42,236 nt of DNA from an uncultured Alistipes sp. (GTDB lineage Bacteria > Bacteroidota > Bacteroidia > Bacteroidales > Rikenellaceae). The translations under genes were made by a program, and so were the position numbers. Location of the stretch: NCBI GenBank assembly GCA_944321755.1, contig CALUMM010000019.1, forward strand, positions 1-42,236, read 5' to 3'. Position 1 is the first letter of the stretch. Each line of letters begins with the position of its first letter. Shown here one piece after another: positions 3,366-37,979 of this stretch. The notes under the pieces are model-generated. The model did not search any database. It saw only the letters and a program-made list of their open reading frames with translations, and was not told the origin of the DNA.

Positions 3366-3392
3366 CCGGGTCCACCAATGCGAAGTCAGCCG

Positions 3393-7466: not shown

Positions 7467-7474
7467 TAAGTTTG
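7467..7474 (+). promoter_or_regulatory. Probable -7 promoter element of the GH2 gene
   Basis: TAAGTTTG matches the Bacteroidota -7 consensus TAnnTTTG and lies 38 bases before ATG 7513. A convincing TTTG -33 element at the ideal distance is not seen; only a T-rich stretch occurs at 7441-7444. The divergent stretch 7279-7512 holds nothing else I can identify. Confidence 0.5.
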
Positions 7475-7512
7475 TATGAAAATAAACTATTCAACGAAAC
7501 CTTAGAAACGAC

Positions 7513-15540: not shown

Positions 15541-15601
15541 CGTGAGACAGGTTGGTGTTTGAGGTTTGGGCTTTCGCCGTTGGTTTCGTGGTTCGACATC
15601 G

Positions 15602-15634
15602 GCGAAGGCCCTCCCTCGCGGGGAGGGCCTTCGC
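15602..15634 (-). other. Perfect 14-bp leader hairpin upstream of GH97
   Basis: Bases 15602-15615 pair perfectly with 15621-15634 around a 5-base loop. It has no T-run on the minus strand, so it is not a classical terminator. It would lie within the first 40 bases of the GH97 transcript, just after the promoter at 15647-15677. It could stabilise the 5' end, or help stop read-through from the GH43 gene. Confidence 0.6.
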
Positions 15635-15646
15635 TCAATATCGCTA

Positions 15647-15677
15647 CAAAGTTAACATTTCGGACGGTTTGTTCAAA
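15647..15677 (-). promoter_or_regulatory. Internal Bacteroidota-type promoter for GH97 and the DUF4965 gene
   Basis: On the minus strand TTTG (15677-15674) and TAACTTTG (15654-15647) are exactly 19 bases apart, matching the consensus. It sits between the GH43 stop (15693) and the GH97 start (15540), giving a leader of about 100 bases. Confidence 0.75.
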
Positions 15678-15692
15678 ATCCGTCCGGAGTTC

Positions 15693-19764: not shown

Positions 19765-19822
19765 AGACAGGGTTGTTGATAGGTTGTTTTTCAGAATTTC
19801 GGTTTTTGCGGCTCGGGGACTG

Positions 19823-21241
19823 CTATTCCACGGTGATGGAGTTGAGCAGGTCGAGTTTTCCGTCGTGGATGAGTTTGAGGATCAACTCGCCGAAGAGGGT
19901 GTTCTGCCAGGCGAACCAGGCGCGGGTGAACTTCTGCGGGTTGTCCTTGTGGAAGGATTCGTGCATGAATCCGGTTCCGGCATCGGTGGTCATGAGCATT
20001 TCGATGCACGCCTTGATTTCGGCGTCGTCGGTCGACGTGAAGGCCCTCATCATGATGCTCATGGGCCAGACCATGTCGTAGCCGATGTGCGGGCCACCGA
20101 TCCCCTCCCCGGCGGTTCCGCGGAAGAAGTAGGGGTTGGCCTCGCTCCAGACGAACCGGCGGGTATTTTCGTAAATGGGGTCCGTGCGCTCGACATCGCC
20201 CAGGTAGGGCATGGCCAGCAGGCTCGGGACGTTGGCGTCGTCCATCAGGAATCGGTTTCCGAAGCCGTCGACCTCGAAGGCGTAGATCTTGCCGAACTGC
20301 GGGTGCTCCACGACGGCGTACTTTTTCAGGGCCGCTTCCACTTCGTCTGCCAGGTCGAGACACTCCCTGGCGAGTTGTTTTTCACCGTTGACCTTGCGGA
20401 GAATCTCCGCGGCCTTGCGCAGCGAGCTCACGGCGAAGAAGTTCGACGGTACGAGGAAATCGAAGGTCGTGGCGTCGTCCGAGGGCCGGAACGAGGAGAC
20501 GATCAGCCCGACGGGATTGACCGGGTTTCCCCACCCTTCGCAGCACTTGGTGTCCAACTGCCGGTCGGTGGTCCGGCGGAAGTAGTAGGGTCCGAGATTC
20601 TCCTTGCGCTGCTGGGCGCGGAACGTGGTGAGGATGTTCCGCACGGCTTTGATCCAGACCTCGCCGAAGACGGACTCATCGCCCGTCGTTTTCCAGTAGT
20701 GGTAGGCCAGGCGGATGGGGTAGCAGTGGGAGTCGATCTCCCATTTGCGCTCGTGCACTTCGGGATGGATCGGTGTTCCGGTCTGGTCCGAAGCCCAGTG
20801 GCTTCCCGTTGCGCCGTCGTTGAAGGCGTTGGCGTAGGGGTCCGTGTTGATGAGCTTGAACTGCCGGACGATGACCCCCGCAACCATGTTGCGGAGGTGT
20901 TCGTCGCGGGGTGTCAGCTGCACGTAGGGCCAGACCTGGGCGCCGGAGTCGCGGAGCCACATGGCATGGATGTCGCCCGTATAGACGAACGTGTCGTAGA
21001 GACCGTCCTCGCCCTTGTCCTTGAAATGGACGGTGGTATCGAGCGTGTTCGGGAAGCAGTTGCCGAACATCCAGGCCAGTTTTGCGTTGGTAAGCATCCC
21101 CTGGACCTCGGCGATGGTCTGCTCGACGGCTTCGGAGACGAACAGCCGGTCCTGCGGCGCGGGGCGCTGCGACTCATGGTTCTGAGCCGCGAGCACTCCG
21201 ACGCCCAGCAGGGCGGAAAGGGATAACAGCAATCTCTTCAT
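19823..21241 (-). CDS. Glycoside hydrolase family 125 exo-alpha-1,6-mannosidase
   Basis: 472-residue exported inverting alpha-mannosidase; characterised GH125 enzymes release mannose from the non-reducing end of alpha-1,6-mannosides. A type I signal peptide (MKRLLLSLSALLGVGVLAA/Q) with no lipobox places it in the periplasm. The family signatures are FVYTGDIHAMWLRDSGAQVWPY, KWEIDSHCYPIRLAY and FRPSDDATTFDFLVPSN (the general acid is probably D255 or D256). Also present are GGPHIGYDMVWPMSI and TGFMHESFHKDNP (candidate base E428). It starts 9 bases after the stop of the SusE-like protein upstream. Its partner in the locus is the surface GH76, whose products it would trim after import. Confidence 0.93.
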   Translation of the reverse strand: MKRLLLSLSALLGVGVLAAQNHESQRPAPQDRLFVSEAVEQTIAEVQGMLTNAKLAWMFGNCFPNTLDTTVHFKDKGEDGLYDTFVYTGDIHAMWLRDSGAQVWPYVQLTPRDEHLRNMVAGVIVRQFKLINTDPYANAFNDGATGSHWASDQTGTPIHPEVHERKWEIDSHCYPIRLAYHYWKTTGDESVFGEVWIKAVRNILTTFRAQQRKENLGPYYFRRTTDRQLDTKCCEGWGNPVNPVGLIVSSFRPSDDATTFDFLVPSNFFAVSSLRKAAEILRKVNGEKQLARECLDLADEVEAALKKYAVVEHPQFGKIYAFEVDGFGNRFLMDDANVPSLLAMPYLGDVERTDPIYENTRRFVWSEANPYFFRGTAGEGIGGPHIGYDMVWPMSIMMRAFTSTDDAEIKACIEMLMTTDAGTGFMHESFHKDNPQKFTRAWFAWQNTLFGELILKLIHDGKLDLLNSITVE

Positions 21242-21249
21242 CGCATCGC

Positions 21250-22425
21250 TTATTTGTCACGGAACGAGCGTTCGTGGTAGTAATCGGCCTTGTCCGTGTT
21301 GTTCATGTGCACGCGGAACGTGGCAAGCTGATTGATACCCTCTTTGTCATTTTTGCTCTTCCAGGTGTGGTCCCATTCGTCGAGCGAGCTGTGCGTGAAG
21401 CGGTAGATGTTGTAGAACTTGGGGTCCTCATCGGGCTTGTCGTTGTTGCGGCAGTCGTCGTCCCAGAACGACCAGCGCTCGGCGCTCTCGTCCTCGTAGG
21501 TTGCGATGAAGTAGTACCGGGAATCCGTCCGTTGTCCGTCATCGGTGATTACCCAGGCGAAGTCGACGAGTTCCCAGACGCCGTTGCCCGTATAGGTCAT
21601 CTCCTCTTGGCTTGCGGCTCCGAACCAGGGGTGGTTCCAGAACTCGACCTTTTCGATGCGCTTCATCGACCACTTCATGGTGTTGAAGTCGATGTAAACC
21701 CAGTAGATACCCGCTGCAGGAGCGGAGATTTCGGTCTCTTCGGTGTAGGTGCAGCGCAGCGTTCCGTTTGCTTCCAGGTCGTAGTAGCGGTCGAGGTTGT
21801 CCTTGACGGTGAAGGTCCCGGCCGAGAAGCGGGTGAAGCACTCCATGGCGCCCGATTTGCGGTCGGCGATGTGTTGACCCTTGGTGGTTCCGACGGGGAG
21901 TGCGGCGTTGAACTTGACTGCTGCCTGGTTCTCCGTGGCCGATCCCTGGAGCGACAAGGTTGCCGGCAGCGGGTCGACCGTATTGGGCAGCGAGACGATG
22001 AGCGTGCGTGCATTCTGCCCGTCGGCGACCTGTTCGGTACCCTGAATCGTGCGGACCGTCCATTTTATGTTGAGGGTCTGTCCGGGGAGACCTCCGCACA
22101 GGGTGGCGATGGTCGACAGGGTGCTTGTTTCAATCTCCAGGGAGGGTTCGAAACCGTTGGCGTCGCTCGTGGCCACATAGGTCGGATTGGAGAAGTCTCC
22201 GTCTTCGCGGTCGAAGAGGACCTGGTAGACGACATTGCCGGAGGTTGCGTTCTCCCACTCGAAGATGACGGAGAGTCCGGTCGTGATGTCGATTGCGTAT
22301 TGGTCTTTGGGGAAGTACAACTGGGGTGCGGAGAGTGCGGCACCGTTGTCCTTCTCGTCGGAATCGCAGGCCGCAGCGGTAACGGCGAGCACGGCAGTCA
22401 GGAAGAGATACAATATGCGTTTCAT
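21250..22425 (-). CDS. SusE-like outer-membrane glycan-binding lipoprotein
   Basis: 391-residue lipoprotein with lipobox TAAAC (C20) followed by acidic residues (DSDEKD), which fits export to the cell surface. It has one SusE-type N-terminal module (about 33-150: APQLYFPKDQYAIDITTG, YQVLFDREDGDFSNP, IKWTVRTI). A C-terminal region of repeated beta-strands follows, with TGNGVWEL and clustered Trp/Tyr residues (WNHPWFG, RWSFWDDD, EWDHTW) likely to stack on sugar rings. It is the second of three SusE-like proteins here and lies 13 bases after the GH76 stop. A non-catalytic capture role is inferred from the family and position. Confidence 0.8.
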   Translation of the reverse strand: MKRILYLFLTAVLAVTAAACDSDEKDNGAALSAPQLYFPKDQYAIDITTGLSVIFEWENATSGNVVYQVLFDREDGDFSNPTYVATSDANGFEPSLEIETSTLSTIATLCGGLPGQTLNIKWTVRTIQGTEQVADGQNARTLIVSLPNTVDPLPATLSLQGSATENQAAVKFNAALPVGTTKGQHIADRKSGAMECFTRFSAGTFTVKDNLDRYYDLEANGTLRCTYTEETEISAPAAGIYWVYIDFNTMKWSMKRIEKVEFWNHPWFGAASQEEMTYTGNGVWELVDFAWVITDDGQRTDSRYYFIATYEDESAERWSFWDDDCRNNDKPDEDPKFYNIYRFTHSSLDEWDHTWKSKNDKEGINQLATFRVHMNNTDKADYYHERSFRDK

Positions 22426-22438
22426 GGTTCAAATCGGT

Positions 22439-23695
22439 TTATTGGTTCCTTTCAATGATCCACATGGATTCGATGGCCTGTGCGGCGCTCGAATAGGCAC
22501 CGAGCGATCCTCCGGTTCCGGGTTCGCGGGCTTCGGTGCACTTGACGCCGAAGTAGGAGTCCTCCCAACCCAGCTGGGACTTGTCGATTCCGATGGTCCA
22601 GTAGTAGGAAGCGTGGCGCAGCACGTAACGGGTCAGCTCCTTCCGGATGGAGGGATCCACGGCATCAATATCCTTGTCGATGGCCATGCGTGCGGCCCAG
22701 TGGAAGAGTACGGCGTGGAAGATCGAGTTGTTCTCGTCGGTACCCTCGTCGCGCATGATCATTTCGTTTTCATAGGTTTCGTTCATTCTCGACGAGGTCA
22801 TCTGCCCGCGGGCTGCGGAGATCGCCTTCTTGATGTATCCGGTATTTCCGGTGAGTTTCCAGAGCAGGCGTCCGGCCTCCATGCAGGTGCCCTGGGTGTA
22901 GCTCAGGGGCGTACCGTCCAGCGTACCGTCGGCGTTCATGACATGGATGTTCTGGTCGAAACAGGTCTGCGACTCTTCGAGATAGCGGTTGTACTCCTCG
23001 CTGTTTCCGGCCTCTTTGGCGTAGCTGGCCAGCATGGCCGAAGCGATGGCTCCGGGGCCGTTCGTACAGGTGTTTGCCCCCAGGTCGGTCATTTTCCAGG
23101 GCAGCCAGCCGTATTCGTTCAGCGCGAAGCGGGGTCTTACGCACTCGTCCCAGGTCTGTTTGGCGGCGTTGTAGTAGGTTTCATCCCCCGTTGCGTCGTA
23201 CATCTGCAGCAGGGCGATGGTGATCCAGAGCGTATCGTCCGTGAAGTCGTTTCCGAAACCCGACGCACCGCGATACGAGGCATTCCCCTCGTAGTTGTTG
23301 CCGCGCTTGTCGTACCAGCGTTTGAAGTAGCTGCGGATGAGAGCGGCCTGGTCGGGGTCCGTGAGTTTGATACGGTTGTAGTAGTCGACCATCGCGGCCA
23401 TGGCGTGAGCCTGCTGCCAGTAACAGTTTCCGTTGTTTTTCTGGTTGTTGTATTCGCTGTAGGAGAATACGCCGTCGGCGCCGTTCCGGTTTGAGCTGCA
23501 GTAGAAACGTTCGATGAAGGCCGTCGATACGGAATCCGCGGCTTCGGCCCAGTCGATTTCATAGTCGGCGTATGAATTGGCTTTCTGCTCGGTTTTCGGA
23601 TTGGTGATGGACATGTAGTCTTCCTCGCAGCCGACGGGGAGCAAGGCGAGCATGGAGAATACGAACAGGGTTCCCATTGATTTATAGAGTTTCAT
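22439..23695 (-). CDS. Glycoside hydrolase family 76 lipoprotein (endo-alpha-1,6-mannanase family)
   Basis: 418-residue lipoprotein (lipobox PVGC, C23) with EED directly after the cysteine, typical of surface lipoproteins in this phylum. GH76 enzymes are retaining endo-alpha-1,6-mannanases that cut mannan backbones. The (alpha/alpha)6 fold signatures are present: CYWQQAHAMAAMVDYYNR, SGFGNDFTDDTLWITIALLQ with the conserved catalytic Asp pair D153-D154, ALNEYGWLPWK, NGPGAIASAML and YTQGTCMEAGRLLWKLTG. It is probably the surface enzyme that starts mannan breakdown for import by the SusCD pair. It sits between two SusE-like genes with gaps of 11 and 13 bases, so the genes are almost certainly cotranscribed. 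Confidence 0.92.
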   Translation of the reverse strand: MKLYKSMGTLFVFSMLALLPVGCEEDYMSITNPKTEQKANSYADYEIDWAEAADSVSTAFIERFYCSSNRNGADGVFSYSEYNNQKNNGNCYWQQAHAMAAMVDYYNRIKLTDPDQAALIRSYFKRWYDKRGNNYEGNASYRGASGFGNDFTDDTLWITIALLQMYDATGDETYYNAAKQTWDECVRPRFALNEYGWLPWKMTDLGANTCTNGPGAIASAMLASYAKEAGNSEEYNRYLEESQTCFDQNIHVMNADGTLDGTPLSYTQGTCMEAGRLLWKLTGNTGYIKKAISAARGQMTSSRMNETYENEMIMRDEGTDENNSIFHAVLFHWAARMAIDKDIDAVDPSIRKELTRYVLRHASYYWTIGIDKSQLGWEDSYFGVKCTEAREPGTGGSLGAYSSAAQAIESMWIIERNQ

Positions 23696-23706
23696 AGTTT
23701 CAGGTT

Positions 23707-24864
23707 TTATTTGAATTTATATTCGTGCCACCAGGTTCCGGCCGGGTTGTCTGCGTTCAGATAGAGGTAGCAGTCGAATGCGCGGCCGCAATCCGTCGTG
23801 AGGAAGTTGTAGGTGTTGTCCCAGTCGGCATTTCCGAGCGAGGTGTAGAGGTTAACCTTGAGGTAGTCGGTCGTATAGGCTGATCCGAGCGAACTCTGGG
23901 TTCCGAGGTAGAGCATGGATCCGTCTCCGAGGGTGGCATTGAACCGGTGTCGCGAGTCTTTTGCCGAGTTGTCGGAGATGGTGTTCTCGTAGTCGGCGAG
24001 CATCCAGACACCTTTGCCCTGGTAGTCCATGGTGACCCGGGATGTCGACATCTGGTTGTCGGCCCAGGCTGCGGCGTAGTATTCGATTTTGGAGATGGTG
24101 TTCGACTCCCAGGTCATCACGCCGAAATCGATCTTGATCCAGTAGATGGCCTCGGTCGTGAAACGGTTGTTGACGGGGGTTTCGGAATCGGTCACCGTTC
24201 CGTCGGCGTTCAGGCTGTAGTAGCGGCCCAGATCGTCGACGACGGTAAAGTCGCTGCCGCTCTTGATGCGGGTGAAGGCCTCGAAGGTTCCCTCCGTAGC
24301 GGCCACGTTGTCGATTCCTGCCGAGACGGCCATGTTGATTCCGTTCTGGGGATCCTCGGTAGCCTCGCCCTGGAGCGTGATGCTTTGGGGCAGCGGCGAC
24401 ATGGAGTTCATGGTCGTGACGGAGAGCAGGCGCGATTCGGTGTAGACGCTTCCGTTGATTCCCTTCGATGCGCGGACGGTCCAGCGGATGTTTCCGGTCT
24501 CCCGGGTTCCGAGTCCTGCGGCCCGGGCCACGGTGTTGAGGTCCTTGGCCGAGACGCTCAGATAGGTCTGCGAACCGGTGAGCTGGCTGGTCATGGCGGC
24601 GAGGGGCTGGGAGAAGTCTCCGTTTTCGCGGTCGAAGAGGAGTTCGTAGGATACGAATCCGTTGTCTTCGGCGATCGAGGGGCTCCATTCGAAGCGCACG
24701 TCGCTGCCCTGGGAGAGGTCTATGCTCTTGCCTTCGGCGGGGAGATAGAGTTTGTTCCCGGTCTGGATGTTGTAGTTGATCTCATTGCCCTCGTCCGAAC
24801 ATCCGGAGACGAACGGCGTGGCCGCGAGTGCCAGGATCGTGATATTTTTAAACAGGATATTCAT
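23707..24864 (-). CDS. SusE-like outer-membrane glycan-binding lipoprotein
   Basis: 385-residue lipoprotein (lipobox VSGC, C22, then SDE). It occupies the classic susE place directly after susD. The N-terminal SusE module (about 37-155) contains KLYLPAEGKSIDLSQGSDVRFEW, YELLFDRENGDFSQP and IRWTVRASKG. The C-terminal half contains VDDLGRYYSLNADGTV, AIYWIKIDFGVMTWES, YQGKGVWMLADY and a final WWHEYKF, matching the layout of the 21250-22425 protein. This suggests the two are diverged paralogues. Likely a surface glycan-binding partner of the SusCD pair; no catalytic motif is visible. Confidence 0.85.
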   Translation of the reverse strand: MNILFKNITILALAATPFVSGCSDEGNEINYNIQTGNKLYLPAEGKSIDLSQGSDVRFEWSPSIAEDNGFVSYELLFDRENGDFSQPLAAMTSQLTGSQTYLSVSAKDLNTVARAAGLGTRETGNIRWTVRASKGINGSVYTESRLLSVTTMNSMSPLPQSITLQGEATEDPQNGINMAVSAGIDNVAATEGTFEAFTRIKSGSDFTVVDDLGRYYSLNADGTVTDSETPVNNRFTTEAIYWIKIDFGVMTWESNTISKIEYYAAAWADNQMSTSRVTMDYQGKGVWMLADYENTISDNSAKDSRHRFNATLGDGSMLYLGTQSSLGSAYTTDYLKVNLYTSLGNADWDNTYNFLTTDCGRAFDCYLYLNADNPAGTWWHEYKFK

Positions 24865-24898
24865 AATTTCAGGTCATTTATGTTATTCCGGGTCGGGT

Positions 24899-26557
24899 CT
24901 ACCATCCGGGGTTCTGCGTGAGGTTGTGGTTGATGTCGCGTTCGCTCTGGGGGATGGGGAACCAGTATTTCATGTTGTAGGTGGAGGGGCACTGGATGTT
25001 GCTTCCGTCGTCGAGGAAGGGGGCACCCGTTGCCTGTGAGGTCAGATAGACGGCTCCGGTGCTTTTGAGCGAGGCGTTCTCCATCAGGGCCCAGCGGCGG
25101 ATGTCGAAGCAGCGGCGGCCTTCGAGCGCGAGTTCCACGCGGCGTTCGTCGCGGATGGTCTGACGCAGGTTGTCGCTGTCGCCGGGATATGCGCAGTAGG
25201 CCTCGTCGAATCCGGCGCGTTCGCGCAGCGGGCGGATCGTGGCGTCCCAGACCTCGGAGGTCATGTTGTCGGTTTCGTACATCGACTCGGCGTACATGAG
25301 CAGCACGTCGGCGTAACGGATCTCCATGAGGGGCTTGTAGGAGCCGCCTCCGGCGCCGACCGTATTGGCCACGTAGTTCTTGATGTTGTAGTATCCGGTG
25401 ACGGTTCGGTTCTGCGAACCGTTGTAGGAGTCGTTCAGTGCGGGATCCGATTTCAGGGCTTCGGCCTCATCGTCGGGGTTCGTCCAGCAGGTGTAGGTAC
25501 CCTTTCCGACGCCTTCCGAACCGATGATCTTGCAGGCCTTGGCCTCGGGGATCTCGATCGTGCAGCCGTTGTAGGCGATGGTTGCGTAGAAGCGCAGGTC
25601 GCGGTCCGTGTAGTCGGTGTCGTCGGCAATCGATCCGTCGGTCTTGCGGAAGCAGTCGACGAGCTCCTGGGTGGGCGAGAATGAGACGATTTCGCCCGAT
25701 CCGATCGACTGGGGTACGCGGCTTCCGGTGTCCCAGCTTCGCTTGATGTTTTCGACGCCGCCCTCGTAGGCGAATTCGATGGTCAGGATCGATTCGGAGC
25801 CGTAGTGTCCGTTGACGAAGAGGTCGGCATAGCTCGAAGCCAGTTCGTAGGTTCCGAATTCGGAGCTGTTGATGAGTTTGGCACACTCGCGGGCGCAGTT
25901 TTCGAAATCGTTGTCCAGGAGGTATGCGCGGGCGTTGAGGGCTACGGCCGTACCGCAGGTGACACGTCCGTTCTCATCGGTGGGGATTTCGGTATTCTTG
26001 GGCAGGATGTGCGATACCTCCTCCAGTTCGGCGTGGATGAACTGCTTGATCTGGTCGGCGCTCGTTCTCGAAATGGATTTCGATTCGGGAAGCGTGGGGT
26101 TGGTCGTGAAGAAGGGCACGTCCCCGAACCAGGTGGTCAGCCGCAGATAGGTGAAGGCCCGGAAAAGCCGGAGTTCGGCCACGAGGCGGTTTTTGACGTT
26201 TTCGTCGATGTTCATGCGGTCCTGGTTGTCCAGTGCGGTGTGGATGGTGCGGAGCTCCTGGTAGCACTGGTTCCATTCGTCGGAGAAACGTCCGCCGTTT
26301 GTGGTAGCGAATCCGGTGGCGACATCGGTCGAGTTCTGGGAGTGGCGGCTTCCGTATACGTCATCGGAGAGGATGTTGTTGTTGAAGTACATGTCGGCGT
26401 TCCAGTACTGGTTGTATCCGAGGTAGAGTGCAGCCATGCAGTTGTCCTCGTAATCCCAGAAGTTTTCGTCGGAATAGGAGTTGGTGGGATACTGTTCGAT
26501 GCCTACGCAACCGACCAGTCCGGCCATCAGGAGTGCGAATATGGTGTGTTTTTTCAT
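24899..26557 (-). CDS. susD: SusD/RagB-family outer-membrane nutrient-binding lipoprotein
   Basis: 552-residue surface lipoprotein that forms the lid over the SusC channel and binds the glycan. Lipobox LVGC (C17) follows a short signal peptide. SusD landmarks are YPTNSYSDENFWDYEDNCMAALYLGYN near the N terminus, the TPR-like helices LVAELRLFRAFTYLRLTTWFGDVPF and RVTCGTAVALNARAYLLDN, and the C-terminal EIRYADVLLMYAESM, IRDERRVELALEGRRCFDIRRWALM and YWFPIPQSERDINHNLTQNPGW. The gene starts 13 bases after the susC stop. The symbol reflects family membership, not starch specificity. Confidence 0.96.
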   Translation of the reverse strand: MKKHTIFALLMAGLVGCVGIEQYPTNSYSDENFWDYEDNCMAALYLGYNQYWNADMYFNNNILSDDVYGSRHSQNSTDVATGFATTNGGRFSDEWNQCYQELRTIHTALDNQDRMNIDENVKNRLVAELRLFRAFTYLRLTTWFGDVPFFTTNPTLPESKSISRTSADQIKQFIHAELEEVSHILPKNTEIPTDENGRVTCGTAVALNARAYLLDNDFENCARECAKLINSSEFGTYELASSYADLFVNGHYGSESILTIEFAYEGGVENIKRSWDTGSRVPQSIGSGEIVSFSPTQELVDCFRKTDGSIADDTDYTDRDLRFYATIAYNGCTIEIPEAKACKIIGSEGVGKGTYTCWTNPDDEAEALKSDPALNDSYNGSQNRTVTGYYNIKNYVANTVGAGGGSYKPLMEIRYADVLLMYAESMYETDNMTSEVWDATIRPLRERAGFDEAYCAYPGDSDNLRQTIRDERRVELALEGRRCFDIRRWALMENASLKSTGAVYLTSQATGAPFLDDGSNIQCPSTYNMKYWFPIPQSERDINHNLTQNPGW

Positions 26558-26570: not shown

Positions 26571-29500
26571 TTAGAAAGTCAGGTTGATACCGCCGCCCCA
26601 GTAGCGCAGGGTGGGATAGTTACGCAGGGAGTTTGCTCCGGATTTTCCCATGTTGCTTCCGAACTCCGAGGATTCGGGGTCGAAGAATCCGTATTTGGAG
26701 AAGGTCAGCGGGTTCTGGGCATCGAGGTAGATGCGCAGGCTCTTGCACCCGAATTTCTTGGTCCACTTTTCGGGCAGGGTGTATCCGATCTGAATATTCT
26801 TGACGCGCAGGTAGGCGGCGTTCACCATGTTCAGTTCCGAACCGGGCTGACCCCAGTTGTTCGCATTGCTTACGGAGCCGTTGACGGCCAGTCGCGGCCA
26901 CTGGGCATCGGTATTGTCGGGCGTCCAGTAGTCGAGCTGGTGCTGGTACATGGTCATGCCGTAATCGGAGTGGAAGGGCTGTACGAGCTCTCCGCGAATG
27001 GCCTGCGTACGCTTCATTACGCCCTGGAGCATGATGCCGAGGTCGATGCCCTTCCAGCTGACGTTGTAGCTGAAGCCGTAGGTGTAGCGCGGGAATGCGT
27101 ATCCGAGATAGGTTCGGTCGTCGGTGTCGATCACGCCGTCTTCGTTGATGTCGACGTAGCGGACGTCACCCGGCCGGAGTTGCGAGCGGTCTACGGTCGA
27201 GGGGATCGCGGCGTTCTGAATCTCCTCGTAGTTGGAGAAGTACCCGGCAACCTTGTATCCGTAGTAGGAGTTCAGGGGGAGCCCCTCCTGGATGATGGTT
27301 GTGACGCCGTCGACCGAGGCGATGTTCGGGGTTCCGTAGGTGACGACCTCGTTTTTCGAATCGGCGAGGTTGAGCGAGAAGCGGTGCTTCCAGTCGCCGC
27401 GGTTGAGGTCGTAGTTGATGGTGAGCTCCCAGCCCTGGTTGTCCATGACGCCGCGGTTCTCCTTGGCGATGCTGGCTCCGAATACGCCGGGGACGATGGC
27501 CGGGAGGAGGATGTCCGAGGTGCGTTTGTAGAAGTAGTCGAAGTTGACGTTCAGGGTATTCCGGAAGAAGGAGGCGTCGAGACCGATGTTGAAGGTTTTC
27601 GAGCGTTCCCAGGTGAGGGCCTCGTTGCCCATGGTGAACATCAGTCCGGGAACGGAGCTTCCGTTGAACCCGTATGCGTCGGTCCAGATTCCGTAGGTGG
27701 TCATGAAGTCGTAGAGACCCACATCCTGCTGGTTACCGTTGATACCGTATGAAGCGCGGAGTTTGAGGTCTCCGACCTTGTTGTAGTAATCGCCCATGAA
27801 CGCCTCCTGGGAGATGCGCCAGCCTGCGGAGATAGCGGGGAAGAAACCGCCGTTTCGCTCCTTGAGGAACTTGGACGACATGTCGTAGCGGGCGGTGAAT
27901 TCGATGTAGTATTTGTCGTCGTAGGAGTATCCGACACGCCCGAAGTAGGATTGCAGAGCCGAACGGGTGTTGTCCTGCGAGGAGAGGGTGGTGCCGCTGT
28001 CGCTCGTGATCGTACCGTCGCTGGGCTGGTTGAGGTCGTTGAGATAATCCTTCGAGGCGTTGATCGAGTAGTGTTTGTTCGACTCCTGCGACCAGCCGAC
28101 CAGTGCGGTGACGTTGTGTTTTTCGGCGAACGTGCGGTTGAAGTCGAGGAGGAGCTGCCCGTTGAGATAGGTGTCTCTTCCGACCCAGTCGTCTGCGGGC
28201 TCGGTGGTGCTTCCGGAGAGTACGGCGGTCGAGGGGTCGGACCAGTTGGCACCGTTGTCGGTGACCACGTAGTAGCTCATGTGGTCGGAGAAGCGGTGTT
28301 CGGTGCGGGACTCGGCACTGAGCACGCCGCGGAGCTTCAGACCTTTGATAATTTCGAATTCGGCATTGAAGATACCGCTGAGGTAGTCGTTATCGTACTT
28401 GTTGTACCCCCCCCCTACGAGCCCGGCGAGTAGGGCGCCGCAACTGCCATATTTATAGTTGTTTGCGTAGAAGATACCGTCATCGTCCATCGACCGGAAG
28501 AAGTAATAGGTCGGGAATCGGGAGAGATCGGCGAAGAGGTATCCGCTGGTTGTGGGGGCTTTGGTTTCGGCGCGGGTGTAGCTGATGTTGGCTCCGACCT
28601 TGAGCCGTCCCCATTCGGTCGAGAGGTTCGAGCGGACGTTGTAGCGCTGTTTGCCGTAGTCGGGGCCGATGTAGTTGGACTCCTGGTCGAAATACCCGGC
28701 CGAGAGCATGTAGGTCGAGTGCTCGGTACCGCCCGTGACGCTGACGTTGTAATTTTGCTGGAGGGCATTTTTCATGGCCTGGTTCACGAAGGGCTCGCAG
28801 TCGCCGTTGATGTACATGTCCTGAATTTCGGCTGCGGAGAAGATGGGGTCCTGGCCGGAGTTGACCAGGGCTTCGTTGCGCAGGATGGAGTTCATGTAGG
28901 AGGGTACGGGCTCGAAGAGGATGTGAGGCTCCTGGGCACCCAGCTGTGCGCTGAAGGAGATGGTCGGAGCGGTCTCCTTGTGACCCTGCTTGGTGGTGAT
29001 GAGGATGACGCCGTTCGAGGAGCGGGCTCCGTAGATGGCGGCCGATCCGGCATCCTTGAGGATGTTCACCGACTCGATGTCATTGGGGTTGAGATCGTTC
29101 ATCCGGGATGCGTCGGCCTGGGGCACGCCGTCGATAACGACCAGCGGCGAGTTGTTGCCCATGGTGTTGATGCCTCGGATCGAGAGGTTCATCTGATCGC
29201 CGCCCGTGGGGTCGTAGTTGCGGGTCTGGATGATGAGGTTTGCGGCCGTACCCTGGAGTGCCTGCTGGATGTTTGCGACGGGACGGTCGGCGAGGTCCTC
29301 GCGATTGACGGTTGAGATGGCCGAGGTGATGTGCCGACGGGTGGTTGTACCGTAGCCGATGACGACGACCTCGTCGAGATAGCTCGTATCCTCGGTCATG
29401 GTCACGGAGATTTCGGTTTTGGTTCCGACCTCCTGTACGACGGTTTTGTACCCGAGGTAGATGAACTGGAGTTTGTCGGAGTTCTTGACTCCCTTGATGA

Positions 29501-29717
29501 GATAGTCTCCGTCGGCGCCGGTAGCGGTACCGTTGACGGTTCCCTCGACGATTACGGAGACACCGACGAGGGGTTGTCCCTTCTCATCCACGATTCTGCC
29601 GCTTACCGACTTGGTCGCGGATTGCCCGAAGGCCTCGCAGACGCCGGAAACGACCAGACACCACAGCACTGCGAGCGAGTAGCGCGCAAGCGTGCTAAAA
29701 GTCGATTTCTTGATCAT
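26571..29717 (-). CDS. susC: SusC/RagA-family TonB-dependent outer-membrane transporter
   Basis: 1048-residue TonB-dependent importer, first gene of the locus. A signal peptide (MIKKSTFSTLARYSLAVLWC onward, to about residue 31) is followed by a carboxypeptidase-D-like domain (SGRIVDEKGQPLVGVSVIVE). The SusC junction LDEVVVIGYGTTTRRHITSA, a plug (LQGTAANLIIQTRN, LSIRGINTMGNNSPLVVIDG, GSAAIYGARSSNGVILITTK) and a long barrel follow, ending in NLTF. No N-terminal STN domain is seen, so it is not the anti-sigma-coupled type, in keeping with control by the divergent sensor regulator. ATG 29717 is chosen; in-frame codons up to 29828 run into the promoter. A run of nine G residues lies in the barrel coding sequence (28407-28415). 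Confidence 0.95.
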   Translation of the reverse strand: MIKKSTFSTLARYSLAVLWCLVVSGVCEAFGQSATKSVSGRIVDEKGQPLVGVSVIVEGTVNGTATGADGDYLIKGVKNSDKLQFIYLGYKTVVQEVGTKTEISVTMTEDTSYLDEVVVIGYGTTTRRHITSAISTVNREDLADRPVANIQQALQGTAANLIIQTRNYDPTGGDQMNLSIRGINTMGNNSPLVVIDGVPQADASRMNDLNPNDIESVNILKDAGSAAIYGARSSNGVILITTKQGHKETAPTISFSAQLGAQEPHILFEPVPSYMNSILRNEALVNSGQDPIFSAAEIQDMYINGDCEPFVNQAMKNALQQNYNVSVTGGTEHSTYMLSAGYFDQESNYIGPDYGKQRYNVRSNLSTEWGRLKVGANISYTRAETKAPTTSGYLFADLSRFPTYYFFRSMDDDGIFYANNYKYGSCGALLAGLVGGGYNKYDNDYLSGIFNAEFEIIKGLKLRGVLSAESRTEHRFSDHMSYYVVTDNGANWSDPSTAVLSGSTTEPADDWVGRDTYLNGQLLLDFNRTFAEKHNVTALVGWSQESNKHYSINASKDYLNDLNQPSDGTITSDSGTTLSSQDNTRSALQSYFGRVGYSYDDKYYIEFTARYDMSSKFLKERNGGFFPAISAGWRISQEAFMGDYYNKVGDLKLRASYGINGNQQDVGLYDFMTTYGIWTDAYGFNGSSVPGLMFTMGNEALTWERSKTFNIGLDASFFRNTLNVNFDYFYKRTSDILLPAIVPGVFGASIAKENRGVMDNQGWELTINYDLNRGDWKHRFSLNLADSKNEVVTYGTPNIASVDGVTTIIQEGLPLNSYYGYKVAGYFSNYEEIQNAAIPSTVDRSQLRPGDVRYVDINEDGVIDTDDRTYLGYAFPRYTYGFSYNVSWKGIDLGIMLQGVMKRTQAIRGELVQPFHSDYGMTMYQHQLDYWTPDNTDAQWPRLAVNGSVSNANNWGQPGSELNMVNAAYLRVKNIQIGYTLPEKWTKKFGCKSLRIYLDAQNPLTFSKYGFFDPESSEFGSNMGKSGANSLRNYPTLRYWGGGINLTF

Positions 29718-29772: not shown

Positions 29773-29780
29773 CAAAAGTA
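29773..29780 (-). promoter_or_regulatory. -7 promoter element of susC
   Basis: TACTTTTG on the minus strand matches TAnnTTTG and would start transcription near 29766, giving a leader of about 50 bases. No TTTG is found at the -33 position, which fits an activator-dependent promoter. Confidence 0.6.
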
Positions 29781-29833
29781 TTTATTAAAGTATTTCTGCG
29801 AGTACGATTTCATGCCATTTAAGTACAAAGCTG

Positions 29834-29841
29834 TACTTTTG
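29834..29841 (+). promoter_or_regulatory. -7 promoter element of the sensor regulator gene
   Basis: TACTTTTG matches the -7 consensus and overlaps the right arm of the dyad at 29821-29838, so a protein bound there could repress or autoregulate this gene. The -33 element is weak. Confidence 0.5.
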
Positions 29842-29893
29842 TGATGATTTATGGCGAAAAAAGCTTAATTTCGGGGCAAATATAGTACGAATT

Positions 29894-32800
29894 ATGGATA
29901 TGGGGTCCTTTTTTCGGGTTGTGTGCGCGAGTACGCTGCTGACGGGCACACCCCTGCTTGCCGGAGCGGGGAATTTGCGGATGATTTCCAGCCGCGAAGG
30001 GATCAGCAACAACTCCATTCTGTGTCTGGACCAGGATGCGGACGGTTACATTTGGCTGGGGACGTGCGAGGGTCTCAACTTCTGGGACGGGCAGCAGATG
30101 GCCTGCTACCCGTTGGCCGAGAGCGGGATGCTCCCGCTTTCGGGGAACCTGATCGAGAAGATCCACCCGACGCAGGACCGTTACAGCTGGCTTCGGACCA
30201 ACTACGGGCTCGATCTGATGTACCGCAACAAGGTAGTCGAGCAGCACCGGGAGTTCCAGGGGATCTACTTTCTGCTCACGCGCAACCGCTCGGAGACGAT
30301 CGTGCTGACCCAGGGCGGAGGTTTCTATGGTTATTGCGAGGAGGATGCGTCGTTCCGTCCGATTCCGGAGCCGTTTTCTTTCGATACCTATATCACTTCG
30401 TGGTCGGGGGCGTGCGATTCGGTTTACCTTTTCCGCACGGACGGGATCTACCGGACGGCTTTTTTGCCCCGTTATCCGGGAGAGCCGTGCCGGCTGGATT
30501 CGCTGGAATGCGTGCAGCCGCTTGCATTGAGCTATGCCTTTGCCGACGGGGATTCGGTTTTGGTGATCGACACCCGGGGCATTCTCTATACCTTCGATCC
30601 GCAGAGCGAGGTGCTCGAATACATCACGGACCTCAGCGGGGAGATCGAGCGTTATGGAAAGGTTTCGGCGGCGATCCGCTACGGCGACGACTTTCTGGTA
30701 TCGTTTCTGTTCGACGGGGTGACGAGGCTCTGTTTCACGCCGGAGAATGCCCGCAAATACGAGACCGAGCGTCTGGATATCAACTGCGGGGTTTTCAGCC
30801 TGCTCAAGGATAAGAAGCAGGATATCGTCTGGATCGGGAGCGACGGCCAGGGACTTTTCATGTATGCCGACGACGAGGTTTCGTTCCATTCGTACACGTT
30901 CGACAAGCTGCCTTACAACCTCTCCAAGCCGGTCCGGAGTCTGCTGCTCGATTCGCGGGGGACGCTGTGGTTTGCGACCAAGGGCGAGGGGATCATCCAG
31001 ATTCCGAACTTCTCCACGTCCCGCAAGCCGACGGATTTCGAGCAGATCAACGGTCCGGATTCGGGGCTTTCGGACCATGCGGTCTTTGCCCTGGAGGAGA
31101 GTGAGCGGGGCGTGGTGTGGATCGGCTCCGAGGGGTTCGGGATCAATTACCGGTCGCTGTCGGGCGGTGCGGTGCGGACGCTGGGCGGGGATCTTCCGCC
31201 GGATCTCCGCTACATCCATGCCATCCGGGAGAGCCATCGGGATACGCTTTGGGTTGCCACGGTGGGCTGCGGGGTTTTCCGGCTGCTGCTCGGCGACCGG
31301 GGCGGGGTTCCCTACGTCCGGGCGTGGAAGAAGCTCGATTTCGGCCGGGCGCTGGAGAACAAGAACTTCTTCTTCACGCTCTTCGAGGATGTGGACCATA
31401 CGCTCTGGATCGGGAACCGGGGCGGGGGTTTGATCCACTACTTTCCGCAGAGCGACTCCTGTACGGTGACGACCTTCGACGATTCGCGGGCGGAGATCGC
31501 CAACGACGTGTGGTCGATCCTCCGTTCGGAGGACGGGCGGCTGTGGATCGGCACGAGCTGGGGTCTGTTGCAGCTCGGGGATGACGGGACGGTGCACGAG
31601 ACGCCGATCCGGAACATCGTGCACGGGATCCTGGAGGACAGCGGCCGGAAGCTTTACCTGACGACCAACAGCGGTCTTGTGCGCTACGACCCGGCGACCT
31701 CCTCGCAGGTGAAGTACGGCTACTCCTACGGGGTCAACACCATCGAGTACAGCGACGGAGCGGCCTTCGAGGACACGAAGGGCAATACGTTGTTTTTCGG
31801 GGGTACGAACGGTTTTGTGGTGATGGAGCAGACCCGCTACAGGGCCGAACCGTTCTATCCGGAGCTGCTTTTCCGCTACGTGCGGATCAATGACCGGCTG
31901 ATTCCGTTTGAGGATGCGGTGAATGGTGACGGGGAGTTGGTCATCCGGCCCTACGAGCGGCTTTACGGCGTGGGGGTGATCGCCCTGGACTACATCAACG
32001 GCAGCAATTACGTCTATCTGTACAATACCGAGGAGTTGGAGGGCGGTTGGCTCGAATCCTCTTCGGAGATTCAGTTTGCGGAACGTCATCCGGGGCGTTA
32101 CCGGCTGAAGGTGCGTTATCGGAATACCGTCACGGGGGATACGAGTCCGGTTCGTTCGCTGACGGTGGTAATCCGGGCTCCGTGGTTTGCGACGCTCCTT
32201 GCGAAGTGTCTCTACGTGCTGTTTTTCCTGCTTTTCGTGGCCGGGGCGGGCTTTTACCTCTACCGGCGCCGGCAGCGGAAGCGGGCCGTGGCTTTAGAGC
32301 GGATCGAGGCCCGGCGCAAGGAGGAGATCCTCGATTCGAAACTCCATCTGATGGAGAATCTGGCCCAGCAGATGGCGGCTCCGGTCTTCATGGTTTCGGT
32401 TCCCTGCCAGCAGCTGCTCGACTACGGGCATTCGGACGATTACATCCGTCAGCGGTTGCGGAAGGTGCTTCAGCAGAGCGACAAGTTGTCGAACATCATC
32501 CACATGCTGCACGATTTCCGGGAGTCGAGCGAGTCGGGGAATCTCAGCGTGAAGATCTTCTCCGTGACGGAGTATGTGACGGAGATTGCGAAGAGTTACG
32601 TTTCGCTGGCCGAGGAGCGCGGGATTTCGTTCGAGCTCCGGGTTCCCGGGGAGCTTCTGTGGACGAGCGATCCGAAGCGGGTTTCGGAGGTGGCGGACAT
32701 GACGATGGCCAACGCCTTCCTGCACGTGGCGCGGAAGGGCCGGATCGGGCTTGACATCGCTTCCGAGGGGGAGCGTCTTGTCATCCGGCTGGAGGTCGAC

Positions 32801-33925
32801 GGGCACTGGATCGACGAGGAGGCGTTCGGCCGGTTGACGGACCGTTACGACATGATGGAGTATTTCCAGCGTCGCAGCGAGGGCGGGGATTCGTTTCAGG
32901 ACGAGATGCGTCTGGTCGTCTGCTTCAACTATGTGACAAGTCTGGGGGGTGTAATGCGTTTTCGGGATCGGGGCGACCGGTTTTCGTTCGAGATCGAGCT
33001 TCCGTCGCTCAGCGTCACCGATGCGGGTTCGGGCATGGAGTCTTACGGGGCATTTCCCGAGGAGTACCTGTTGAACAGCCACATCCTGATGGTCGAGAAG
33101 GAGCGGATCCGTCAGTTCGACGTCGGGGGCGATCGTCCGACGATGTTCGTGATCGGTTCCGACGCGGGGATCATCAACTCGCTGGCGGAGATGTTCTCCG
33201 AGGAGTACAACATCCGCACGTTCCGCAAGCCGGAGAAGTTCGCCGAGGAGATGCAGGCGGGGCATCCGGACATTATTCTTTGCGAGAACATCCCGATGAA
33301 GGAGGATCTGGAGCAGCTGATGTCGTCGGTCAAGCGGGACCGGATGACGGTGAAGATTCCCGTCATTCTGATTACGAGTCTGCAACATGCGGATTCTCCG
33401 GTCGGGGAGTATGCGGATGCGGTTCTCTCGCTGCCGATCAACGTGAAGACCCTGAAATTTACGGTTCGTCAGAGTCTCAACCGGGTAAGTTCGTTGCGGG
33501 AGTATTACAGTTCGTCGATCAGCGTCTATGAGTTCAGCGACGGGAAGATGCTGCACAGCGAGGACAAGCAGTTCCTGGAGCGGATGTTCAAGATCATCCA
33601 GGAGAACCTTGCGGACAGCAGCATGACGACGGGGACGATTGCGCGGCAGATGGGGATCAGCCTTCGGAATCTCTACCACCGGCTCGAAGGGATCGTGAAC
33701 GTGACTCCGAGCAGCATTATCCGGGAGTATCGGTTGGCCTATGCGGAGCATCTGCTGACGAAGACGAAGCTTTCGGTGGACGAGATCATCTACAAGTCGG
33801 GCTTTACCAACCGGGGGACCTTTTTCAAGAACTTTTCGGCGAAGTACGGCTGTACGCCGAAAAGTTACCGGAGCCGGAAGATCGAGGAGGTTCCGGATGC
33901 CCCGGATGCCCCGGAGCAGGCATAA
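29894..33925 (+). CDS. Hybrid two-component-type sensor/AraC regulator with degenerate kinase and receiver
   Basis: 1343-residue inner-membrane regulator, divergent from susC and its likely controller. A signal peptide (1-25) leads to a periplasmic two-bladed propeller sensor built of Reg_prop repeats (about 30-650: GYIWLGTCEGLNFW, DIVWIGSDGQGLF, GTLWFATKGEGI, TLWIGNRGGGL). A Y_Y_Y domain (about 690-760) and one membrane helix (763-790) follow. The dimerisation/H-box region (805-872) has Gln825 where the phospho-accepting His belongs (ENLAQQMAAP). The ATPase-like domain (about 920-1038) lacks the G1 Asp (V968) and the GxGIGL loop. The receiver (1082-1198) has G1088-S1089 for the acidic pair, E1131 for the phospho-accepting Asp and L1180 for the Lys, keeping only T1161. 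The AraC-type double helix-turn-helix (about 1228-1328) looks intact. The frame is uninterrupted. Signalling by conformational change rather than phosphotransfer is inferred. Confidence 0.9.
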   Translation: MDMGSFFRVVCASTLLTGTPLLAGAGNLRMISSREGISNNSILCLDQDADGYIWLGTCEGLNFWDGQQMACYPLAESGMLPLSGNLIEKIHPTQDRYSWLRTNYGLDLMYRNKVVEQHREFQGIYFLLTRNRSETIVLTQGGGFYGYCEEDASFRPIPEPFSFDTYITSWSGACDSVYLFRTDGIYRTAFLPRYPGEPCRLDSLECVQPLALSYAFADGDSVLVIDTRGILYTFDPQSEVLEYITDLSGEIERYGKVSAAIRYGDDFLVSFLFDGVTRLCFTPENARKYETERLDINCGVFSLLKDKKQDIVWIGSDGQGLFMYADDEVSFHSYTFDKLPYNLSKPVRSLLLDSRGTLWFATKGEGIIQIPNFSTSRKPTDFEQINGPDSGLSDHAVFALEESERGVVWIGSEGFGINYRSLSGGAVRTLGGDLPPDLRYIHAIRESHRDTLWVATVGCGVFRLLLGDRGGVPYVRAWKKLDFGRALENKNFFFTLFEDVDHTLWIGNRGGGLIHYFPQSDSCTVTTFDDSRAEIANDVWSILRSEDGRLWIGTSWGLLQLGDDGTVHETPIRNIVHGILEDSGRKLYLTTNSGLVRYDPATSSQVKYGYSYGVNTIEYSDGAAFEDTKGNTLFFGGTNGFVVMEQTRYRAEPFYPELLFRYVRINDRLIPFEDAVNGDGELVIRPYERLYGVGVIALDYINGSNYVYLYNTEELEGGWLESSSEIQFAERHPGRYRLKVRYRNTVTGDTSPVRSLTVVIRAPWFATLLAKCLYVLFFLLFVAGAGFYLYRRRQRKRAVALERIEARRKEEILDSKLHLMENLAQQMAAPVFMVSVPCQQLLDYGHSDDYIRQRLRKVLQQSDKLSNIIHMLHDFRESSESGNLSVKIFSVTEYVTEIAKSYVSLAEERGISFELRVPGELLWTSDPKRVSEVADMTMANAFLHVARKGRIGLDIASEGERLVIRLEVDGHWIDEEAFGRLTDRYDMMEYFQRRSEGGDSFQDEMRLVVCFNYVTSLGGVMRFRDRGDRFSFEIELPSLSVTDAGSGMESYGAFPEEYLLNSHILMVEKERIRQFDVGGDRPTMFVIGSDAGIINSLAEMFSEEYNIRTFRKPEKFAEEMQAGHPDIILCENIPMKEDLEQLMSSVKRDRMTVKIPVILITSLQHADSPVGEYADAVLSLPINVKTLKFTVRQSLNRVSSLREYYSSSISVYEFSDGKMLHSEDKQFLERMFKIIQENLADSSMTTGTIARQMGISLRNLYHRLEGIVNVTPSSIIREYRLAYAEHLLTKTKLSVDEIIYKSGFTNRGTFFKNFSAKYGCTPKSYRSRKIEEVPDAPDAPEQA

Positions 33926-33986: not shown

Positions 33987-34016
33987 CGGGCGTTCCGTTT
34001 CGGGGACGCCCGTTTT
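33987..34016 (+). terminator. Intrinsic terminator after the sensor regulator gene
   Basis: CGGGCGT (33987-33993) pairs with ACGCCCG (34006-34012), extended by a T-G wobble and two C-G pairs, and is followed by TTTT. It lies 61 bases after the stop. Confidence 0.65.
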
Positions 34017-34302: not shown

Positions 34303-35049
34303 ATGACCGTCCAGATGAACCAGTCGCTGTCGGTGGACTGCGCCGTCTTCGGCTTCAACGGCAAGACGCTCAAAGTCCTGCTGATCGAACGGCGCTACTA
34401 CAAGCCCGACACGCATCTCGACCCTTTGAAACTGCCCGGTGCGATGATCCTCGAAAACGAGACGCTTCCCGAGGCGGCTTATCGTGTCCTGGAGGAGGCC
34501 ACGGGTCTCAAGAACGTCTATCTGAAACAGATGGATATTTTCTCCGACCCGCAGCGTGTCTGCGGTGAAGAACTGGAGTGGATCAATCGTTATCATGGGA
34601 TTCACAGCGAGCGGGTTGTGACAGTAGGCTATTATGCGCTGGTGAAACTCGATCATCGAACCATCGCCTATACCACGGCCAAAGGAGCGCAGTGGGTTGA
34701 CGTGGATTCGATTCAGCGATTGGCCATGGATCACAAACAGATCCTTTCGTCGGCTCTGCGGCATCTTTGCCGTGAGATGCTTCAGTCGCCTGTAGCCTTC
34801 GAGCTGCTGCCTCGGAAGTTCACGATACGGTCCCTTCAGAATCTTTACAGTGCCGTGCTGGGCATCGAGATCGATAACCGCAATTTCCGGAAAAAGATCC
34901 TCTCATCGGGTTTTCTGACCCCGACGGCCGAGAAGGAGCAGGGCGTAGCCCACAAACCGGCGCAATACTATACATTTAATAAGAATGCCTACAAGAAAGC
35001 CGTCAGGGAGAAGTTGAAGTTGGGATTTATCAACAATTGGAAATATTGA
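34303..35049 (+). CDS. NUDIX-domain transcriptional regulator of xylose use (NrtR-like)
   Basis: 248-residue cytoplasmic regulator: an N-terminal NUDIX-fold domain (about 8-145) joined to a C-terminal winged helix (about 160-245: PRKFTIRSLQNLYSAVLG, NRNFRKKILSSGFLTPT). The NUDIX box is degenerate (GAMILENETLPEAAYRVLEE), with the catalytic REUxEE core reading RVLEEA, so it should bind a ligand rather than hydrolyse it. This is the pattern of NrtR-family sugar regulators such as B. thetaiotaomicron AraR. It is followed by xylulokinase, xylose isomerase and a xylose symporter, an arrangement also known from Bacteroides. D-xylose or a derivative is therefore the probable effector. Confidence 0.88.
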   Translation: MTVQMNQSLSVDCAVFGFNGKTLKVLLIERRYYKPDTHLDPLKLPGAMILENETLPEAAYRVLEEATGLKNVYLKQMDIFSDPQRVCGEELEWINRYHGIHSERVVTVGYYALVKLDHRTIAYTTAKGAQWVDVDSIQRLAMDHKQILSSALRHLCREMLQSPVAFELLPRKFTIRSLQNLYSAVLGIEIDNRNFRKKILSSGFLTPTAEKEQGVAHKPAQYYTFNKNAYKKAVREKLKLGFINNWKY

Positions 35050-35089
35050 GGCCGCACGACTTGCGGGAAACAACGAAAAGGAAAAAATC

Positions 35090-36586: not shown

Positions 36587-36598
36587 AACACAAAAAAG

Positions 36599-37912: not shown

Positions 37913-37919
37913 ATCCCGG

Positions 37920-37955
37920 TCCGGAGCGGGCAGCGATCCCGTCGCCCGTTCCGGA
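37920..37955 (+). other. Hairpin between xylA and the xylose symporter gene
   Basis: Bases 37920-37931 pair with 37944-37955 (12 bp including one G-U pair) around a 12-base loop. There is no T-run, so it is more likely an mRNA processing or stabilising element than a terminator. Confidence 0.5.
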
Positions 37956-37979
37956 TCTCATACCTGCAAACTGCGAACC

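Follow-up and report, generated by a model that had tools for sequence, protein, structure and literature searches.

A conserved hybrid-type regulator deprived of its phosphotransfer residues at a putative alpha-mannan locus of Alistipes

In hybrid two-component systems (HTCSs), a latch formed by an S/CHIP loop of the receiver and by a D and a K of the DNA-binding domain has been argued to restrain DNA binding until phosphorylation, and changes in the latch to release it; in BT4124 latch substitutions led to phosphorylation-independent DNA binding (PMC11253607; here and below, papers are cited from extracts of their text). For HTCSs, direct repeats spaced 21 bp apart on average were predicted, and three mannan regulators of Bacteroides thetaiotaomicron were grouped (PMC3878776). 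Pseudo-receivers and pseudo-kinases are already known (PMC12632262, PMC4395418, PMC4211667), as is Gln in place of the phospho-His in one HTCS, BT4236, for which a phosphorylation-independent mechanism was suggested by the authors (PMC11253607); the switching mechanisms of bacterial pseudo-receivers have been called a mystery (PMC12632262). We analysed a stretch of 42,236 nucleotides from an uncultured Alistipes sp. (GenBank assembly GCA_944321755.1, contig CALUMM010000019.1), called the window in what follows, in which an open reading frame (29894-33925, + strand) codes for an HTCS-like regulator of 1343 residues without any internal stop. Judging from sequence comparisons, we consider it rather likely that this protein is a former alpha-mannan-type HTCS which no longer relies on His-Asp phosphotransfer and now activates the transcription of its locus as a transmembrane one-component regulator.

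The lost phosphotransfer residues and the orthologues that share them

We assigned the sites by alignment with 29, then 72 relatives: Q825 aligns to the H-box His, V968 to the G1 Asp, G1088-S1089 to the acidic pair, E1131 to the phospho-Asp and L1180 to the conserved Lys. Since these sites sit within well-aligned blocks, an alignment error was rejected. An initial annotation of the window had named the same residues, together with an intact reading frame and the absence of the G2 glycine loop (SFQDEMRL stands in its place), and each of these points is correct. Its statement that every phosphotransfer site was lost holds for the His, the Asp, the acidic pair, the Lys and the G1 Asp, and is slightly too strong because the N-box Asn (N940), the first Gly of G1 (G970) and the receiver Thr (T1161) remain. 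The switch Tyr of beta5, absent from that annotation, is also gone: it is Val in the window protein and its orthologues, and the seven remaining rows of the 17-row clade described below have Cys there. As Asn is usual at the G1 Asp position in nearly all of the wider clade, including members with intact His, Asp and Lys, the loss of this Asp is by itself no mark of decay and was rejected as such. The octapeptide at the G2 position (residues 1000-1007, 32891-32914) is invariant in 10/10 orthologues, while L005, L043, L044, L045 and L048 read SFQGDLRL or SFQGDMRL. Seven residues ahead of Q825, H818 is conserved in the same ten sequences; around this place, Arg, Lys or Gln-like residues prevail in relatives, and we saw no sign that it stands in for the phospho-His, a point on which no dedicated check was made.

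The protein has the architecture of an HTCS on one chain, namely a propeller sensor, Y_Y_Y, a membrane pass read by eye and an AraC-type HTH. Above the Pfam cut-off we found five Reg_prop repeats, Y_Y_Y (699-760) and HTH_18 (1249-1328). HATPase_c (E 0.0057) and Response_reg (E 0.14) fall below the cut-off, HisKA is absent from the Pfam matches listed up to E 10, and the 25 NCBIfam matches listed, of 43 families, are all below cut-off. The residues of the His-Asp phosphorelay are gone (Q825, E1131, L1180, G1088-S1089), and we therefore regard the protein as an HTCS descendant and do not file it as a working two-component system. By sequence, the nearest chains of solved structure belong to HTCS sensors, apart from one receiver-HTH chain of an HTCS, 12aw. 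We modelled residues 795-1343 with AlphaFold2 from 67 aligned sequences (mean predicted local distance difference test 81.7, predicted template modelling score 0.57, a value from which nothing is concluded on domain placement). At the head of the Foldseek matches of this model stand ShkA, ZraS, a bacteriophytochrome, RetS, HK853 and DivL. The two-component scaffold is thus predicted to be kept, with a receiver fold without phospho-Asp, as in pseudo-receivers, and a fold of the DHp and catalytic ATP-binding type without phospho-His, as in pseudo-histidine kinases.

Orthologues were searched for in 101 relatives, 268 genomes of the family, 393 of the order and in one scan of named genomes (Alistipes, Bacteroidales); searches by protein scored at most six candidates per genome (101 relatives) or at most two (family and order), so that some orthologues may have been missed. 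After removal of seven duplicate loci, the orthologue group consists of ten distinct sequences, the window protein and nine from Alistipes or Bacteroidales that are 65-96% identical to it. Q825, E1131 and L1180 are found in 10/10; positions 1088/1089 are GS in nine and GT in one, and at position 968 one sequence has I and the other nine V. Hence, a local decay of a single copy was rejected. We then placed these sequences on a 64-row tree, from which nine partial or duplicate rows were excluded, built from the sensor only (residues 25-780) so that the scored traits do not shape it. Seventeen rows, mostly regulators of alpha-mannan loci, form one clade (Shimodaira-Hasegawa-like approximate likelihood ratio test 100), in which the Lys is Leu in 17/17 and both His and Asp are lost in 15 and retained in 2. 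Outside the orthologue group, L005, L043, L044 and L045 have Gln at the His and G, G, G and E respectively at the phospho-Asp, and L006 has Arg and Thr; two intermediates, L046 and L047, retain His and Asp but no longer have the Lys or the first acidic residue. In the sister group of seven rows the His, acidic pair, Asp and Lys are all intact. Three partial rows stand outside the tree. These are L088, from the genus of L006, with Arg and Ala, L048, with Gln, which ends ahead of the receiver, and L052. This last, a more distant relative (locus L073), has Thr for His, Asn for Asp and Leu for Lys, and its frame breaks near residue 280 (a pseudogene or an assembly error).

On the 64-row tree, the distribution of the His requires two changes when regain is permitted, and three losses otherwise. 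For a carefully built 28-row tree, the approximately unbiased test rejected the grouping of all His-less rows into one clade (p 0.023; one test, on a group named after the tree had been seen), and the branch joining L046 and L047 to the window group has a support of 85/82 only. From the tree we infer an order of events in which the latch would have been altered, then the Lys, the Tyr and the first acidic residue lost, then the His and the Asp (three times if never regained).

The ratio of non-synonymous to synonymous substitution rates (dN/dS), a check that the initial annotation had proposed, was obtained by simple pairwise counting on eight pairs of the window group and on four control pairs of other HTCSs from the same species, three of which concern one protein that itself has Met for Lys. 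In the window group we obtained 0.09-0.16 for the sensor, 0-0.28 for the DHp domain, 0.10-0.23 for the receiver (one pair reaching 0.51 at dS 0.04) and 0-0.18 for the HTH; the controls gave 0.10-0.16 (sensor), 0.07-0.10 (ATPase) and 0.09-0.11 (receiver). At the level of sequence comparison, this shows purifying selection on the sensor, on the DHp, ATPase and receiver domains and on the DNA-binding domain, weakest in the dead ATPase. The ATPase-like domain is relaxed yet constrained, and the other domains appear much like those of other regulators.

The locus and its putative operator

The features of the regulator and of its locus are collected in Table 1. The SusD and SusE-like proteins and the GH76, GH125, GH43 and GH97 enzymes (glycoside hydrolase families, GH) beside the regulator point to alpha-mannan, so that the locus would be of the alpha-mannan or alpha-mannoside type known for the mannan regulators (HTCS_Man), the substrate being read from the enzyme families. 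When stretches of about 20 kb were examined, all six other Alistipes clade members covered (L063-L068) had a GH125 homologue beside them, as had the intact L050 and L007 (L070, L075); GH38 and GH92 adjoin L006, while GH92, GH125 and GH76 adjoin the intact L007. No GH125 or GH76 match was found in the stretches of this length beside L049, L051, L060 and L052 (L069, L071, L072, L073). As both dead and intact relatives have mannan-type enzymes beside them, the target sugar seems, for most of the clade, to have stayed unchanged while the phosphorelay was lost.

Table 1. Features of the regulator and of its locus in the window
Feature	Position	Strand	Basis or remark
Pseudo-HTCS, whole gene	29894..33925	+	open frame; nine further distinct orthologues with open frames, similar length
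Periplasmic sensor, residues 25-763 (Reg_prop propellers; Y_Y_Y 699-760)	29966..32182	+	Pfam; PDB relatives 4a2l, 3v9f; dN/dS
Transmembrane helix, about residues 768-793	32195..32272	+	read by eye from translation, boundaries approximate
DHp-like domain, residues 813-880; Q825 (32366-32368) replaces His	32330..32533	+	alignments; AlphaFold2 long helices
ATPase-like domain, residues 881-1045; V968 at G1 Asp; SFQDEMRL for G2; N-box N940 retained	32534..33028	+	alignments
Receiver-like domain, residues 1081-1203; G1088-S1089, E1131 (33284-33286), L1180 (33431-33433)	33134..33502	+	alignments
Latch motif, receiver half: VKIP (residues 1153-1156) where S/CHIP expected	33350..33361	+	motif from PMC11253607 (extract)
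Latch partners D1224 and R1263, consensus D and K	DNA-binding side	+	placed via 39-residue D-K spacing
AraC-type DNA-binding domain, residues 1235-1332	33596..33889	+	HTH_18 E 1e-18; dN/dS
Putative operator: GTACGATTTCATGCC, second GTAC 21 bp further (29823)	29802..29844	+	kept in 10/10 orthologue loci including window
Putative susC -7 box TACTTTTG, 21-22 bp from putative operator	29773..29780	-	TAnnTTTG in 10/10
susC-like TonB-dependent transporter, divergent from regulator, probable target; start ATG 29717 by eye	26571..29717	-	Pfam; DNA sequence
Remainder of putative alpha-mannan locus: susD, SusE-like proteins, GH76 (22439-23695), GH125 (19823-21241), GH43, GH97	13546..26557	-	Pfam; partly syntenic in relatives
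Terminator-like hairpin 3' of regulator	33987..34012	+	weak: 3 such sites found vs 5.4 expected from shuffles

The gap between susC and the regulator is 176 bp, measured by eye. In 10/10 loci of the orthologue group, the sequence GTACGNTTT stands ahead of the regulator, 90-107 bp from its first aligned base, and 21 bp after this sequence one finds GTAC in eight loci and GTGC or GTAT in the other two, that is, a direct repeat with the 21-bp period of the HTCS_Man regulators, which we regard as a putative operator. On the susC strand, the distance from GTACGNTTT to TAnnTTTG, which we take to be the Bacteroides -7 consensus, is 21-22 bp in 10/10 loci. A longer pattern, GTACGNTTTNNNGCC, was picked by eye after the sequences had been viewed. 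It is present upstream of 17/17 clade rows (no mismatch in 10, one in 6, two in 1); outside the clade, at most two mismatches were found in 2/7 intact sisters and two in 1/9 outer relatives, and all 20 far ones have at least three. Shuffles of the same stretch reached its score in 4/60 cases for L005, in 1/60 each for L044 and L006, and in 0/60 for the other 14 clade rows. A copy with one mismatch also stands upstream of a separate susC of L067.

Elsewhere in the window, 34303-39407 (+ strand) codes for an NrtR/AraR-like regulator; an FGGY kinase, a xylose-isomerase-like protein and a sugar transporter come after it. The 649-residue product of 7396-9345 (- strand) has no Pfam or NCBIfam match, and copies 37-40% identical to it are found at four other loci of the regulator's relatives; for the product of 2700-4415, no Pfam or NCBIfam family was matched either.

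The latch and the loss of His and Asp in 121 regulators

The latch of the window group reads VKIP-DR in 10/10. In the other seven rows of the clade it is SHIP in four and AHIP, QHIP and THIP in one each, all with DR, so that the Lys of the DNA-binding half has become Arg in 17/17; the intact sister rows (8/8) and the outer rows (10/10) are likewise off the latch consensus. We surveyed the HTCSs of 12 chosen genomes (five of Alistipes, seven from other families), most of which were picked for holding a relative and which are not a random sample. For Alistipes, the best 52 of 108 matches were scored; these are nearly full-length HTCS halves (L161 ends at model position 470) and the other 56 are mostly shorter. 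For the other families, the cut-off was E 1e-90 and 69/69 were scored. The His, Asp and Lys are jointly lost in 3/52 Alistipes proteins, all of them orthologues of the window protein, itself included, and in 1/69 from the other families, namely L006. These 4 proteins of 121 all come from the 17-row clade, and such a confinement of the joint loss within the survey is, as far as these sequences can tell, more than chance. Losses at single sites are found in 9/121 for the His, 6/121 for the Asp and 7/121 for the Lys. Set against the published 0.9% of HisKA domains without His and 2.0% of receivers without Asp (PMC12632262), single losses are not rarer in the chosen genomes.

Among these 121 HTCSs, the His or the Asp is lost only where the latch between receiver and DNA-binding domain is off consensus, which is the new observation of this work: the count is 0/69 with a full consensus latch and 10/52 without (Fisher p 1.3e-4). 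The ten rows represent about six lineages, two of them in the 17-row clade, and as survey rows are related the p value is too small. That 42/52 proteins with a latch off consensus keep both His and Asp fits an order in which the latch changes first. Three Lys-to-Met proteins keep the consensus latch, the His and the Asp, and this places the loss of the Lys alone outside the latch rule.

Several other proteins deserve to be mentioned on their own account. L157, L159 and L160 (G109, G199, G023) belong to a second Alistipes HTCS group with Tyr for the phospho-His, as in DivL, with Asp and Lys kept and with a non-consensus latch. L119, L122, L125 (the last in the window's own genome, G000:C18) and L101-L103 are HTCSs with Met for the receiver Lys that have lost the second acidic residue and kept His and Asp; in the three of them covered by the survey, the latch too is of the consensus form. 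Separate HTCSs with a non-consensus latch are L228 (G471:C22; His to Asn and Asp to Glu), L229 (G083:C2; His to Asn) and L230 (G524:C1; Asp to Glu). The receivers of L152 and L161 have Ala-Gly at the acidic pair, with His, Asp and Lys kept.

Weighing of the explanations and comparison with known systems

The losses fixed in 10/10 orthologues, the purifying selection on the cytoplasmic domains and the conserved HTCS-type direct repeat before susC make a protein kept by selection as a phosphorylation-independent transmembrane regulator the best reading, as the initial annotation had proposed. This regulator would probably switch on genes for the use of mannose-rich sugars. A mannan fragment would be sensed in the periplasm and its binding would alter the dimer's geometry. 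This change would be relayed mechanically by the DHp-like helices together with the ATPase-like and receiver-like domains; the paired DNA-binding domains, freed from the receiver latch (VKIP-DR for S/CHIP-DK), would then bind the direct repeat and transcription of susC would start. Several points weigh against this. The conserved H818 has no explanation in such a mechanism. The ATPase-like domain is less constrained than in the controls (dN/dS 0.10-0.38 vs 0.07-0.10) and the linker 1046-1080 gives 0.04-0.95 (0.95 in one pair), so that drift may be under way in part of the protein. Four of the seven other clade rows retain SHIP, with Lys-to-Arg as their sole latch change, and there the latch is not clearly broken. 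The putative operator pattern was derived from the very sequences on which it is scored. The extracts of the HTCS literature yield no HTCS shown to answer its ligand without phosphate chemistry. Finally, activation is told from repression by the position of the site only, and BT2391, another HTCS off the latch consensus, represses (PMC11253607).

This last example, and the statement of the same paper that repression may occur among HTCSs off the latch consensus, also speak for an unlatched repressor, given the VKIP-DR latch: the window protein would bind its operator by default and the glycan would release it. We hold this to be unlikely, as in 10/10 loci the repeat begins 21-22 bp upstream from the -7 box of susC, which in promoter geometry is a usual position for an activator; this is a weak argument. 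A gene in decay, heading to a pseudogene, would account for the raised dN/dS of the ATPase and has a parallel in the frameshift of the distant L052; it is nevertheless very improbable in view of the open frames and of the purifying selection seen over ten distinct sequences, DHp, receiver and HTH included.

The initial annotation had also raised dimerisation with a catalytic partner encoded elsewhere and a partial locking-on by the Asp-to-Glu change, of which the latter is weakened here. In a wider form of the first, the protein would be a regulatory subunit, joining an active kinase in mixed dimers or bigger assemblies and controlled by this partner, in the way DivL or RetS act on others. The Foldseek matches include the kinase regions of these two, a protein without kinase activity has been shown to act on another pathway (PMC4211667), and G199 has, about 30 kb away, an HTCS 28% identical with intact His, Asp and Lys. 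Against this, no close intact paralogue was found in the 99%-complete G054, where the next match is 23% identical (6 of 34 candidates scored), the protein's own receiver offers no acceptor Asp to a partner kinase, and its own DNA-binding domain and putative operator are conserved; we regard such a subunit as quite improbable. In a wider form of the second, slightly less probable still, the protein would be constitutively active, kept on by the Asp-to-Glu change or by the lost latch, and controlled through its own expression. E1131 is indeed present in 10/10 orthologues, and in aspartate-less receivers it is Glu that most often replaces the Asp (PMC12632262). Related pseudo-regulators, however, read E, G or T there (A in the partial L088) and the two intermediates keep D, so that Glu as a required phosphomimetic was rejected; the Lys and the Tyr, thought to mediate the phosphomimetic effect, are gone in 17/17 rows; and the dN/dS of the sensor is as low as that of the control HTCSs, hence sensing still seems to matter.

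A wider proposal, which we put forward tentatively and judge a little less probable than not, is that HTCSs can become purely mechanical transmembrane regulators by a repeatable route. The latch would change, so that DNA binding would no longer wait for phosphate, then the Lys, the Tyr and the acidic pair would be lost, then the His and the Asp in several lineages independently; the sensor, helices, receiver fold, DNA-binding domain and operator would stay under selection, with the dead kinase and receiver serving as a conformational relay only. These relatives offer a natural series (intact, half-lost, fully lost) with similar loci and a conserved operator-like site, which permits a protein-by-protein comparison of the steps that lead from phosphorylated to phosphate-free signalling. 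The association of phosphosite loss with an altered latch is a simple rule, which can be tested on more genomes and used to predict HTCSs independent of phosphorylation, and it cautions against calling every such protein a two-component system.

Whether regulators of this kind had been described was a question left by the initial annotation. In part they had: BT4236 of B. thetaiotaomicron resembles the window protein in that its phospho-His is replaced by Gln and its latch, which reads CSIP-EK, is off consensus (PMC11253607). No report of an HTCS that had lost both halves of the relay, with His, Asp and Lys gone together, nor of a link between latch and phosphosites, came up in the literature searches, which covered open-licence papers. 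The comparison with BT4236 is by description only, and the extract of PMC11253607 reports for it no loss of the Asp, the Lys or the acidic pair. The HTCS_Man regulators BT2628, BT3302 and BT3786 of the same species resemble the window protein in belonging to alpha-mannan loci, in their predicted direct-repeat operators of two 16-bp sites with a 5-bp spacer (PMC3878776) and in their non-consensus latch (PMC11253607); they differ, again by description only, in that they presumably keep the His, since that extract names only BT4236 as His-less. With pseudo-receivers and aspartate-less receivers, the window protein shares a receiver fold without phospho-Asp, and its Glu is the replacement most often met there, whereas, unlike the examples in the extracts of PMC12632262 and PMC4395418, its receiver belongs to an HTCS in which the kinase half is likewise dead. 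As in the pseudo-histidine kinase DivL, which is without autokinase activity, the H-box His is replaced and the fold kept; DivL, however, retains the N, G1, F and G2 boxes and exerts its effect via other proteins (PMC4211667). The window protein has its output domain fused to it. From transmembrane transcription regulators, which we take to be of the ToxR/CadC kind, it differs in that it still has, between the membrane and the DNA-binding domain, the complete two-component scaffold, about 400 residues long. With these regulators and their "hybrid" forms it has in common a membrane part and a DNA-binding domain on one chain (PMC10269533).

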